Below are positions 6,504 through 10,278 of a stretch of 64,000 bases of DNA, in pieces. The position numbers and the translations under genes are program-made. Under the pieces are notes generated by a model, which made no database searches, was not told the origin of the DNA, and saw only the letters and a program-made list of their open reading frames with translations. The DNA comes from Chthonomonas calidirosea T49 (GTDB lineage: Bacteria; Armatimonadota; Chthonomonadetes; Chthonomonadales; Chthonomonadaceae), in contig NC_021487.1 of NCBI RefSeq assembly GCF_000427095.1, positions 248,001-312,000 on the forward strand, given 5' to 3'. Numbering within the stretch: position 1 is the first letter of the stretch; each line of letters opens with the position of its first letter.

Positions 6504-8042
6504 TTAGTAATGGGCAGATTCGAACTCTCTTTGCAAAGGATGCGTTGCCGTACCAAAATCTTCAAGCACACATTCCGCGGCGATTTGCCCTGACATAAGC
6601 ACCATAGGAACACCGGGGCCAGGGTTCACGCTGCCACCAGCAAAGTAGAGGCCTTTAATAAGATGGCTTCGATTGCCTGTTTTAAAGGCCGAACGTAGTC
6701 CTCGTTGCGTAACGACCCCATAGATCGCACCACGGTTTGCCCAGTAGAGCTGTTCGATATCTTGTGGCGTAAGCATGTAGGAAACCTGAATAGATTCTCT
6801 CAATCCGACTAGGCCGGAGCGTTCCAACTTTGAGAGAATACATTGTTGATAGTCGGTGCCCATCTGCTGCCAATTAAAGGCATCGGTAAGATAGGGGCAG
6901 TGAACCAGCACATAGAGGGCGGTGGTATTAGGCGGAGCTACAGAAGGGTCGGTTATACTCGGCACGGCCAGATAGCAGGTTGGGTCTTGATGAGGGATTT
7001 TATGTTCGTAGAGATCGCGAAACTCGGCGTCGCTATTAGCAGAGAAGAAGAAGTTGTGATGTTGAAGCTGTGGCCATGTGCGGTTACATCCGAGATAGAG
7101 CACGATGCCGGAACAGGCCGGCTCTAGCTGCTTCTGGCGGTTTTTGAGATAAGCTTTGGCTTCAGGAATATCGAGAAGCCGCTCTAAGGTGTGCACGATA
7201 TCGGAGTTCGCTATAACGGCATCAAACCGCTCAAGTTGACCTCCCGATGGCAATACACCGGCGATTTTGCCGTCGGCTGTTTCGATGTGCTCGACGAAGG
7301 TGTTAAGGCGAATGTCCACGCCAAACTCATGACAGAGCGCCCCTAAAGCCCTTGCAATTTCTCCGGTACCTCCCATGGGATACCAACAGCCTTGCCCGAT
7401 TTGAACCCATACAATGAGGCAGAGAATGGCCGGTGCCACAAACGGTGAAGAACCTACGTACTGTACGAAGTGTTCGAATAGTTGGGCTAATCGTTCATCT
7501 TGGAAGTGCTTGCGGATCGCGCGATGCATGGTGGTGAAGGGATCCATTTGAAGAGCGAGGAGAGCCGATTGAAGGTTCAGTGGGCTGGCTGTCATCAGGT
7601 CGCGCAGGCTGCCGTAGGGTTTCCAGTAGAACCATCGCTCGGCGATTGTGTTCATGCGATGGCTGTAGCGAAGAAAGCGGAGATAGTTACTTACTTCTTG
7701 TGGGGCGAACCTCTGTAACTCGGAATTCATTTGATGAAGAGAGGAGTAGAGGTCAAGATGTGAACCATCGGCGAAAAAAGCGCGCCATTGCGGATCAAGG
7801 GCAACGAGGTTAAGGTAGTCCCTGTAATGACGGCCGACCGCATGAAACAGCCGCTCGATCACCTCCGGTTTTGTGATAATGGTAGGGCCCATGTCGAAGG
7901 TGAACCCATCTGCTTGCCAGACGTTCATTTTGCCACCGAGGTGACTATTTTTTTCGTAGAGGGTTACGCGATGTCCGGCATGCGCGAGGCGTACGGCCGC
8001 GGCTAATCCTGCTAATCCGCCTCCAATAACAGCGATTCGCAC
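6504..8042 (-). CDS. crtI: CrtI-type carotenoid desaturase/oxidase (phytoene desaturase family)
   Basis: 512 residues. FAD-binding fold at the N-terminus (VIGGGLAGLAAAVRLAHAG, then LYEKNSHLGGKMN) followed by FDMGPTIITKP, typical of CrtI/CrtN. The C-terminal signature FAGGSVNPGPGVPMVLMSG is also present. Such enzymes desaturate phytoene or diapophytoene, or oxidise terminal methyl groups (CrtP type). GTG start at 8042 overlaps the stop of the upstream aldehyde dehydrogenase by one base (TAGTG), so the two are co-translated. That pairing makes a role in making terminal aldehydes or acids on an acyclic carotenoid plausible, but desaturase and oxidase cannot be separated by eye. Confidence 0.88.
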   Translation of the reverse strand: MRIAVIGGGLAGLAAAVRLAHAGHRVTLYEKNSHLGGKMNVWQADGFTFDMGPTIITKPEVIERLFHAVGRHYRDYLNLVALDPQWRAFFADGSHLDLYSSLHQMNSELQRFAPQEVSNYLRFLRYSHRMNTIAERWFYWKPYGSLRDLMTASPLNLQSALLALQMDPFTTMHRAIRKHFQDERLAQLFEHFVQYVGSSPFVAPAILCLIVWVQIGQGCWYPMGGTGEIARALGALCHEFGVDIRLNTFVEHIETADGKIAGVLPSGGQLERFDAVIANSDIVHTLERLLDIPEAKAYLKNRQKQLEPACSGIVLYLGCNRTWPQLQHHNFFFSANSDAEFRDLYEHKIPHQDPTCYLAVPSITDPSVAPPNTTALYVLVHCPYLTDAFNWQQMGTDYQQCILSKLERSGLVGLRESIQVSYMLTPQDIEQLYWANRGAIYGVVTQRGLRSAFKTGNRSHLIKGLYFAGGSVNPGPGVPMVLMSGQIAAECVLEDFGTATHPLQREFESAHY

Positions 8043-9607
8043 TATTTACCTCCTCGATGGACGTTATTTTTGAGAGCGTATTGGTGTTCTCGTCTCCAGC
8101 TTAGCACAGCAGCAAAGAGAGAGAAAAGCGCTTGAAGGCGATGGTGAAGCGAGGAAGGGATGTAGAGCTCCACAAGTGAGCGAAGCAGATGCACGTTAGC
8201 ATGATGGTATGGGAAAAGATGATATCTCCGTTTGAATGGTGACGTATGGTATATGGCCTTCCACACCACGAACTCATCCAGCCCTTCGCGCCCGCGCTGC
8301 TTCCCAAAACCACTTAGGCGCCATCCTCCGAAGGGTATCGCAGGGTTCGCAGCGATCAGCAGCTCCACCTCGTTGATGGTAACAACTGCGGCCCGCAGTT
8401 GCTGAGCTAAGAAGCGGCCGTGTTGTCTGTCTTTTGTCCAGATGCTGACGCCAAGGGTAAATTCCGAGCGGTTGGCGCGTTCTACGGCTTCCTCATCGCT
8501 ATGAACGGATGAAACGGCGAGCACAGGCCCAAAGAGGTCTTCCTGCATAAGGGCCATGTCGTCGGTGCAGTCTGCGACCAGCGTGGGGGCGTAGAAGTAA
8601 CCTGTGCGTGAAAGCGCGTATCCTCCTGTAAGCAACTCTGCGCCCTGTGCACAGGCTGCCTGAACGCGTTGGTGGAGATTGCTTCGCAAGTTTTCGGTAC
8701 GCAGAGGGGTTAGCTCTTGTTCGAGCTGCAACCGTTCCATTTGTTGTTGGCATAGGGTAAGAAACTCATGATAGCATTTTTGATGAACAAAAATACGTTG
8801 CGGAGCAACGCAACTTTGACCGGCATTGCAACAGCGTGCCCATACAAGACAGCGCGCGGCAGATGGCAGGTCTGCATAAGCGGTTACGATGCTAGCATCA
8901 TTGCCAGATAACTCCATAACGGCAGGAGTAGGCCCTTGTGCTAGAGTGGATAGAATGCTGCGGCCCGTGGCCGTACTACCTGTGAAAGCAAGCTTCTGGA
9001 TGCTGCTTCGACAGAGCGCTTGACCTACTTGGGCATCGCCTATAACAAGGAAGACGGGGAGCTCGGCTTGTTCAAGGCAGCTTTGCAGGGCGAACGACGA
9101 AGCGGTAGCTAGCTCGGATGGTTTCCATACCACGGTGTTGCCAGCTGCGAGTGCCCAGAGAATAGGGGTAAGGTTGAGCCATAAGGGATAGTTCCAGGTG
9201 CCGATGATGCCTACAACACCGTAGGGTTGGGGGGCAAGGGTCACCTGGCGAAGACGACGAGGGCGCAGGTAGTGGGCAATCTGTTGTTCAAGCCATTTAA
9301 TGGCTGAGAGCGAGGGCAAGATCTCGGCTCCGTAGACCTCCTGAAGCGGCTTGCCGATCTCTTGGTGAATGGTTGACACGAGTTGTTCCGCTTGGGCTGC
9401 TAGCACCCTGCGAAGTTGTTTTAGGTAGTCACCACGCTGGCGGGGCGTAAGGCGCGACCAGTGGAGTAAAGCCTTGTTGGCGCGATGAATGGTCGCATTC
9501 ACCTCTTCTTCGGTTGCAATGGGGTAGCAACCGATAGTCTCTTGGGTAAGCGGGGATATGGAGCGAATCGTGCGCATTTTATGGCCTAGCATGGGAGTGG
9601 ATTCCAT
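8042..9607 (-). CDS. Aldehyde dehydrogenase, probably acting on a carotenoid aldehyde
   Basis: 521 residues of the NAD(P)-dependent aldehyde dehydrogenase superfamily. The cofactor region has GTWNYPLW, and VWKPSE; GSTATGRSI is the turn that binds nicotinamide; MELSGNDA carries the general base Glu; NAGQSCVAPQR carries the catalytic Cys. The C-terminal part has an added tail of about 50 residues (RYHLFPYHHANVHL and onward). It heads an operon with crtI, which recalls the AldH that oxidises 4,4'-diaponeurosporenal in staphyloxanthin synthesis; that assignment is inference from the neighbour. ATG at 9607 has GAGGG 7 nt upstream. It lies downstream of a structured leader with an internal terminator. 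Confidence 0.85.
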   Translation of the reverse strand: MESTPMLGHKMRTIRSISPLTQETIGCYPIATEEEVNATIHRANKALLHWSRLTPRQRGDYLKQLRRVLAAQAEQLVSTIHQEIGKPLQEVYGAEILPSLSAIKWLEQQIAHYLRPRRLRQVTLAPQPYGVVGIIGTWNYPLWLNLTPILWALAAGNTVVWKPSELATASSFALQSCLEQAELPVFLVIGDAQVGQALCRSSIQKLAFTGSTATGRSILSTLAQGPTPAVMELSGNDASIVTAYADLPSAARCLVWARCCNAGQSCVAPQRIFVHQKCYHEFLTLCQQQMERLQLEQELTPLRTENLRSNLHQRVQAACAQGAELLTGGYALSRTGYFYAPTLVADCTDDMALMQEDLFGPVLAVSSVHSDEEAVERANRSEFTLGVSIWTKDRQHGRFLAQQLRAAVVTINEVELLIAANPAIPFGGWRLSGFGKQRGREGLDEFVVWKAIYHTSPFKRRYHLFPYHHANVHLLRSLVELYIPSSLHHRLQALFSLFAAVLSWRREHQYALKNNVHRGGK

Positions 9608-9667
9608 ATATTATCCCTCAGTAATACGCCTGGACTCTTAAGAAAGTGACAGGATGGAGGCGCATTG

Positions 9668-9705
9668 CAAAATAAAAATGGCGGTCGGTTCCTCCCGGCC
9701 GCCAT
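9668..9705 (-). terminator. Intrinsic terminator inside the leader of the aldehyde dehydrogenase-crtI operon
   Basis: Stem ATGGCGG-t-CGG / CCG-g-CCGCCAT (9678-9688, 9695-9705) with loop ttcctc; the minus strand continues with TTTTTATTTT. It lies between the only strong promoter and the operon, so read-through must be controlled or another promoter must exist. Confidence 0.75.
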
Positions 9706-9827
9706 CAAAAGGGGCGATAATGGGGTTTTCCGTTCTCTACGAGCACCTTTGCGAAAGATGCGGGGGCTCGCATCTTTGCAAGTTCGCGATGCTTCGTTTG
9801 AGGTGGAAAACGTCTTTTAATAAAGAC
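9668..9827 (-). ncRNA. Structured leader RNA or small RNA ahead of the aldehyde dehydrogenase-crtI operon
   Basis: About 160 nt, read on the minus strand from a consensus promoter at 9834-9862. Three stem-loops follow in order: a 7-bp hairpin at the very 5' end (plus CGTCTTT-TAAT-AAAGACG, 9811-9828); a 13-bp stem with one bulge (9749-9781); and an 11-bp terminator stem with one mismatch (9678-9705) followed on the minus strand by TTTTTATTTT (9669-9678). The operon's first ATG is 60 nt beyond the U tract. It is either a free sRNA or an attenuator/riboswitch-like leader. I do not recognise the sequence as a known riboswitch class. No convincing reading frame covers it. Confidence 0.6.
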
Positions 9828-9833
9828 GAATAT

Positions 9834-9862
9834 ATTCTATCACCCTAGCATGAGGCTGTCAA
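9834..9862 (-). promoter_or_regulatory. Consensus sigma-70 promoter for the leader RNA / carotenoid operon
   Basis: Minus strand TTGACA (plus 9857-9862), exactly 17 nt, TAGAAT (plus 9834-9839). Predicted start near 9827, at the base of the first hairpin. It is the best promoter in the 443-nt gap 9608-10050. Confidence 0.88.
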
Positions 9863-9956: not shown

Positions 9957-10050
9957 GTAAGGATTCTGGTGCACTCTTTGTGAACGTGAGTTGTTGACGC
10001 TCCGGGAGTCCGCACTGAAAGTTGTGCAGGTCTTAGGAGTACCAGACAAT

Positions 10051-10278
10051 ATGCTTTTGGGCAAAGTAAAGTGGTTTAACAACGCTAAGGGCTATGGGTT
10101 TATCGTTGCCGAAGACGGAGTAGATGTTTTCGTGCACTACTCGGTGATTCAGATGGAAGGGTTCAGAACGTTACGAGAGGGACAACTCGTACGTTACGAG
10201 GCAACGGAAGGGCCGAAAGGCCGACTCGCCACCCGTGTAATCCCCAGAGTTGAGGATGATGAACCGAGCCAAGCCTAG
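10051..10278 (+). CDS. Cold shock domain protein (CspA family)
   Basis: 75 residues forming one cold-shock domain. [16 protein letters not shown] holds RNP1 (KGYGFI) and [10 protein letters not shown] holds RNP2; the rest follows the five-strand OB pattern, with a short acidic tail EDDEPSQA. CspA proteins bind single-stranded RNA and melt secondary structure. The longest frame starts 20 codons earlier at a TTG, but ATG 10051 starts the domain directly and has AGGAGT 10 nt upstream. Expected to have an 84-nt leader from the sigma-54-type promoter at 9940-9956. Its last 4 bases overlap the convergent DUF5658 gene. Confidence 0.93.

Follow-up and report, generated by a model that had tools for sequence, protein, structure and literature searches.

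We found that a stretch of the minus strand (9828 to 9669 of the window, that is, of the 64,000-nucleotide stretch of Chthonomonas calidirosea T49 DNA analysed here) is very probably a conserved stand-alone small RNA (sRNA) gene. The predicted transcript is about 158-160 nt long, its start being set by the promoter and its end by the terminator. Judged from its sequence, this new RNA founds a small family of sRNAs, of a kind already known. The family, which is defined by its promoter, its covarying structure and its loop, was seen in our searches only in the Armatimonadota family to which Chthonomonas belongs. The papers that we searched yielded no description of a regulatory RNA from Armatimonadota, and this phylum is now added to those where regulation through C-rich loops may operate. 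As the family is present in a cultivated type strain, it is directly testable. The tempting lead that the neighbouring carotenoid genes are controlled by attenuation was removed as wrong. The pathway genes of C. calidirosea have been reported to be unusually scattered (PMC4959169).

The sRNA locus lies between a divergent cold-shock gene (10048-10278, plus strand) and an aldehyde dehydrogenase (ALDH) gene (8042-9607, minus strand; Pfam Aldedh, 3.8e-117). The ALDH gene lies downstream and does not belong to the RNA. Its start codon is the ATG at 9607, with a Shine-Dalgarno-like GAGGG ahead of it, and its own neighbour encodes a CrtI-like desaturase (6504-8042, minus strand; Pfam Amino_oxidase / NAD_binding_8). 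A sequence-only reading had described a consensus promoter before this ALDH-crtI operon, and a near-consensus promoter was indeed present at 9862-9834 on the minus strand, with 11 of 12 consensus matches. It consists of TTGACA (9862-9857), a 17-nt spacer and TAGAAT (9839-9834), and it is of the extended -10 type (GTGA TAGAAT), a TG preceding the -10 box. A promoter scan of the 1-kb region gave 2 promoter-like sites, against 0.7 expected from shuffles. From the promoter, transcription is predicted to start at about 9828-9826. The cold-shock-domain gene stands about 190 nt from the sRNA promoter, and such a gene was not observed beside the other copies. The element is single-copy in the one-contig T49 genome (G000; 3,437,861 bases), where the remaining weak model matches were short and terminator-like, adjoined a tRNA-like stretch, or were antisense to terminators.

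BLASTN of the element in relatives yielded no homologue, only short chance matches. With a covariance model of the single window sequence (R2), full-length matches were obtained in G008, G011, G001 and G006. A five-sequence model made from a hand alignment (R3), in which gaps were filled with N and the G006 terminator loop was shortened by 10 nt, additionally placed the RNA in G003, G016, G015, G012, G002, G010 and G007. The covariance search in related genomes that the sequence-only reading had proposed gave homologues in 12 of the 17 family genomes (E 1e-23 to 0.02 with R3), and their helices covary on structure-guided alignments. A pattern search for promoter plus loop revealed a weaker 13th copy, in G004 (10.3 bits), that has the same promoter and motifs. 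No copy was seen in G005 and G013, which belong to one genus, or in G009 and G014, which are 73% and 74% complete; candidate promoters in G009, G013 and G014 were without a homologue there. The promoter layout TTGACA-14N-TGNTANNNT was observed in all 11 untruncated R3-scored homologues and also in G004. Since the promoter is absent from the models, its fixed 17-nt spacing in 11/11 is an independent confirmation of the homologues.

Across about 270 genomes of the phylum outside the family, the covariance model gave no convincing match. When 291 phylum genomes were searched at E<=0.01, the family members were returned along with two 64-nt matches (G061 and G186), and these two were set aside. 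R3 matches in G020, G025 and G035, and a second match in G000 by a tRNA-like stretch, were also rejected; those inspected were without a matching promoter and mostly due to terminator similarity.

We further examined the fold of the window copy, which shares 46-57% identity with the other copies. The element folded at -58.7 kcal/mol, as against -37.6 +/- 4.1 kcal/mol for dinucleotide shuffles (z = -5.2, 0/200). All of its parts given here are on the minus strand. A 5' hairpin, CGUCUUUAUUAAAAGACG, lies at the predicted start (9828-9811). It is stable in the window copy and not clearly conserved; a comparable hairpin could be drawn in G008, and it was weak or different in the other copies. Read on the plus strand, the same hairpin is also terminator-like (CGTCTTTTAATAAAGACG then AATATATTCT). 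Helix P1, with UUUUCC (9805-9810) as its 5' arm and 9726-9731 as the partner, had 87.5% of its cells paired over 12 sequences. In helix P3, the 5' arm is GAAGCAUC (9788-9795), from which one A bulges out, and the 3' arm is GGUGCUC (9741-9747); both-side changes were seen in 6 of the 7 pairs. The apical stem, P4, is formed by AUGCG (9769-9773) and CGCAU (9758-9762), and all 5 of its pairs changed on both sides. In C. calidirosea P4 extends to 13 pairs with bulges (9781-9749) within a longer rod, and the tip of the rod carries the hexaloop AGCCCC (9763-9768), the most conserved part and the proposed seed. The 3' arm of P1 and a second C-rich motif, GGAAAACCCCAU (in its typical family form, GGAAAACCUCAU), follow at 9720-9731; this segment is mostly single-stranded and is a proposed second pairing site.

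The transcript is predicted to end at an intrinsic terminator (9706-9669), a stem-loop AUGGCGGCCGG..CCGACCGCCAU followed by TTTTTATTTT, in which 8 of 11 pairs showed both-side changes. A simple terminator scanner missed it, a C-A mismatch in the stem being the probable cause. With its 3' arm complete, the terminator was part of the minimum-energy fold, and a terminator-like stem stands at the corresponding place in the homologues. The earlier structural description was thus correct in that the hairpin (9828-9811), the 13-bp bulged stem (9781-9749) and the terminator are all present, although its +1 hairpin is the part that is not clearly conserved. The conserved parts are the rod with its C-rich hexaloop, the 3' C-rich motif and the terminator.

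Covariation was estimated on an alignment of 12 sequences made with the covariance model, and such an alignment is biased towards the structure of the model. In this alignment 91.5% of the cells pair, and both-side changes were found in 21 of 29 pairs; the covariation score was 0.552, whereas shuffles gave 0.183 (0/500) and sliding gave no more than 0.117. When RNAalifold was run on a sequence-only alignment, the terminator alone was recovered and not the rod, because MAFFT misplaces the GA[A/U]GC arm by one column in some rows. As the rod is missing from the sequence-only alignment, its covariation rests on the structure-guided alignments. Visual inspection of helix P3 gave the pattern G[A]W-GC..GC-WC, where W-W alternates between A-U and U-A and is scored as a mismatch by the stored structure.

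Folding of unaligned single sequences recovered P4 in 12 of 13 copies. The closing pair of the hexaloop hairpin had a probability of at least 0.97 in 11 of 13; it was 0.53 in G006, and the hairpin was not formed in G004. The hexaloop A[G/U]CC[C/U]C was present in 13 of 13 copies (AUCCCC or AUCCUC in 5 and AGCCYC in the others), with an unpaired probability of 0.92-1.00 in 12, and its sequence is kept while its stem varies. The six-column stretch of highest information was the apical loop with its closing pair, followed by GGAAA and CCUCAU. The second C-rich motif had its exact form in 9 of 12 copies and looser forms in the rest (CCCCUU in G001 and G011, CCUCUU in G008). It is partly paired in several members, with an unpaired probability of 0.30-0.54 in about half.

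The sequence-only reading had offered two possibilities, a free RNA of about 160 nt or anti-termination of the carotenoid genes. The surroundings of the homologues supported the free RNA, since they have their own promoter and terminator and stand beside unrelated genes. The RNA precedes an apparent nucleotidyltransferase (NTP transferase) and then an MFS transporter on the same strand at L093 in G008, L094 in G011, L096 in G001 and L110 in G003, the transferase assignment in G008 being tentative owing to an ambiguous reading frame. This is perhaps the ancestral location in that subclade. The G006 copy adjoins an esterase, and the copies in G002, G012 and G015 face a convergent gene downstream. 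The downstream genes thus differ among genomes and do not form the consistent co-directional set that a leader would need.

We also followed the ALDH locus itself. In most of the ALDH-carrying members of the family this gene is followed by a close crtI (59-73% identical); by tblastn the order was that of the window in every case where the contig extended far enough. A separate search for loci related through the ALDH returned distant proteobacterial dehydrogenases, which were uninformative. At L036, L037, L039, L040, L045, L046 and L047, loci of several relatives, a second CrtI-like desaturase (32-36% identical) lies directly before the ALDH; the window locus has only the close crtI after the ALDH and no distant desaturase before it. 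Upstream of the ALDH in relatives, nothing resembling the element was seen by eye, and there was no Rfam match.

A cis-acting leader, in which the operon would be transcribed from the sRNA promoter and read-through of the terminator regulated by a ligand, a protein or temperature, would fit the position of the operon, which has the same orientation and follows about 60 nt past the terminator; in the interval 9668-9607 the promoter scan gave no site on the minus strand. However, the homologues stand apart from ALDH-crtI in several genomes that possess this operon (the two are on different contigs in G001, G003, G006, G008, G010 and G011), and three homologues have the convergent gene downstream. 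In addition, the rod and the terminator of the window copy are compatible modules that fold independently, with no competing antiterminator visible, and the fold in which the 3' arm of the terminator was kept unpaired was about 11 kcal/mol weaker than the terminator fold. As the RNA lies apart from the ALDH in six genomes having both, relatives show by eye no such element upstream of their ALDH, and no competing folds were seen, attenuation is not supported, and we consider a leader very unlikely. Occasional read-through into the ALDH-crtI operon is possible in C. calidirosea.

We also considered whether the element might be a 6S RNA that has diverged, or an RNA that replaces 6S functionally by binding RNA polymerase, in the manner of mycobacterial Ms1. 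The idea was raised because 6S RNA was undetected in the T49 genome and the first R2 matches fell in genomes lacking 6S; the 6S identity was dropped when R3 placed the RNA also in genomes having 6S. The new RNA does share with the 6S RNA of Armatimonadota its length of about 160 nt, a long bulged rod and its own promoter. Searches with RF00013, and with a phylum-specific 6S model from 17 sequences (R1) that scored 69 candidates per genome out of the several hundred from a first look, left 6S undetected in G000, G001, G003, G006, G007, G008 and G011, all of which have the new RNA. 6S is present in other members of the same family and order, and in this clade it was either lost or strongly diverged. 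Against a 6S identity, RF00013 gave no match in the whole T49 genome at E<=10, and R1 gave none over the sRNA element with filters off. Both RNAs occur together in six members (G002, G004, G010, G012, G015 and G016). The conserved 6S letters and the large central bubble are lacking, the window copy having only small internal loops and its 5' and 3' ends being unpaired with each other, and 6S RNA does not have the feature that is best conserved in the new RNA, an apical C-rich loop. We therefore regard a 6S-like RNA as quite improbable. Several clear Armatimonadota 6S RNAs (e.g. L050-L067 and L022-L029) scored 20-42 bits with RF00013, below the gathering cut-off. With the phylum model these RNAs scored 116-163 bits, a gain that is partly by construction as the sequences are among the model's own input. 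The Rfam 6S model may under-call Armatimonadota.

The own promoter and terminator, the independence from neighbours and the exposed C-rich loop suggest that the sRNA probably regulates other genes and not the adjacent carotenoid genes. It would be transcribed from its strong extended -10 promoter up to its own terminator, giving a long bulged rod with the C-rich hexaloop at the tip and the second C-rich motif (ACC[C/U]CAU) in a single strand before the terminator. Acting in trans, first the hexaloop and then the second motif would base-pair to target mRNAs at their G-rich Shine-Dalgarno regions, and ribosome entry would thereby be blocked, possibly with the help of Hfq. An Hfq is encoded at G000:C1:524115-524306 (E 1.9e-28). 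By analogy with known sRNAs, we think it rather likely that the RNA acts through its C-rich motifs on ribosome-binding sites. In a duplex search for targets, none of 51 gene-like starts in the window stood out, and the neighbouring ALDH start came 23rd for pairing with the C-rich linker. Any CCUCC-like loop is complementary to a Shine-Dalgarno sequence, so a match by itself is weak evidence. As a highly improbable further possibility, the RNA would be a novel type of global regulator in this lineage, imitating the 16S rRNA tail (as with the GAUCCUCC loop in G001, G007 and G011), joining general translational control and having inherited some of the growth-phase function of 6S.

The conserved loop could instead be bound by a protein, the RNA serving in titration or as a scaffold. 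A fixed hexaloop on a varying stem also marks protein-binding hairpins, and the AGGAAA/CGGAAA stretch can be read as a GGA motif. But this GGA lies in helix P1 and not in a loop, while the conserved loop is rich in C and is followed by another C-rich motif, and we take protein binding to be unlikely. That the element is transcribed but functionless, or very recent, is hardly credible, since promoter spacing, helices, loop and terminator have all been kept at 46-57% identity between the window copy and the others and the compensatory changes already disfavour it.

Regulation of other genes through the C-rich motifs was next compared with known systems. The sequence-only reading had recognised no known riboswitch or sRNA, and this held: Rfam 15 gave no match in the window or at nine homologous loci, and no family matched the element at gathering or permissive thresholds. 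The 6C model, too, gave no match in the window element (E<=10) or the homologous loci (E<=1). Binding of Shine-Dalgarno sequences by accessible C-rich motifs is an established mode, as in the UCCC sRNAs of S. aureus (PMC3861533), LhrC (PMC4132741) and B11/6C (PMC10470900). B11 represses its targets by pairing of its C-rich loops with G-rich ribosome-binding regions (PMC10470900). Like 6C/B11, the new RNA would be a stand-alone sRNA with an exposed C-rich loop; however, 6C/B11 has two C-rich hairpin loops, whereas the new RNA combines a single hexaloop, at the tip of its long bulged rod, with a C-rich motif in a single strand, and 6C/B11 belongs to mycobacteria while the new RNA is from a different phylum, with Hfq present. 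The UCCC-type sRNAs of Firmicutes (the S. aureus Rsa family, RNAIII and Listeria LhrC) have short conserved C-rich seeds in loops and single strands, as does the new RNA. LhrC carries such seeds in a loop, in the segment that separates stems and in the loop of the terminator (PMC4132741). There was no match to these sRNAs in sequence or structure, and the new motif, A[G/U]CC[C/U]C, is not strictly UCCC. PmaR of Agrobacterium has a long stable stem and one exposed C-rich loop that is required for target regulation, and its effect on targets is mainly activation, exerted outside the ribosome-binding site (PMC6234868). The likeness to PmaR is one of outline, a long stem with an exposed C-rich loop at its tip, the PmaR loop being larger, and homology would not be expected. 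Together, these comparisons place the new RNA beside the C-rich sRNAs that bind Shine-Dalgarno sequences, with which it shares a stand-alone gene with promoter and terminator and a conserved unpaired C-rich seed.
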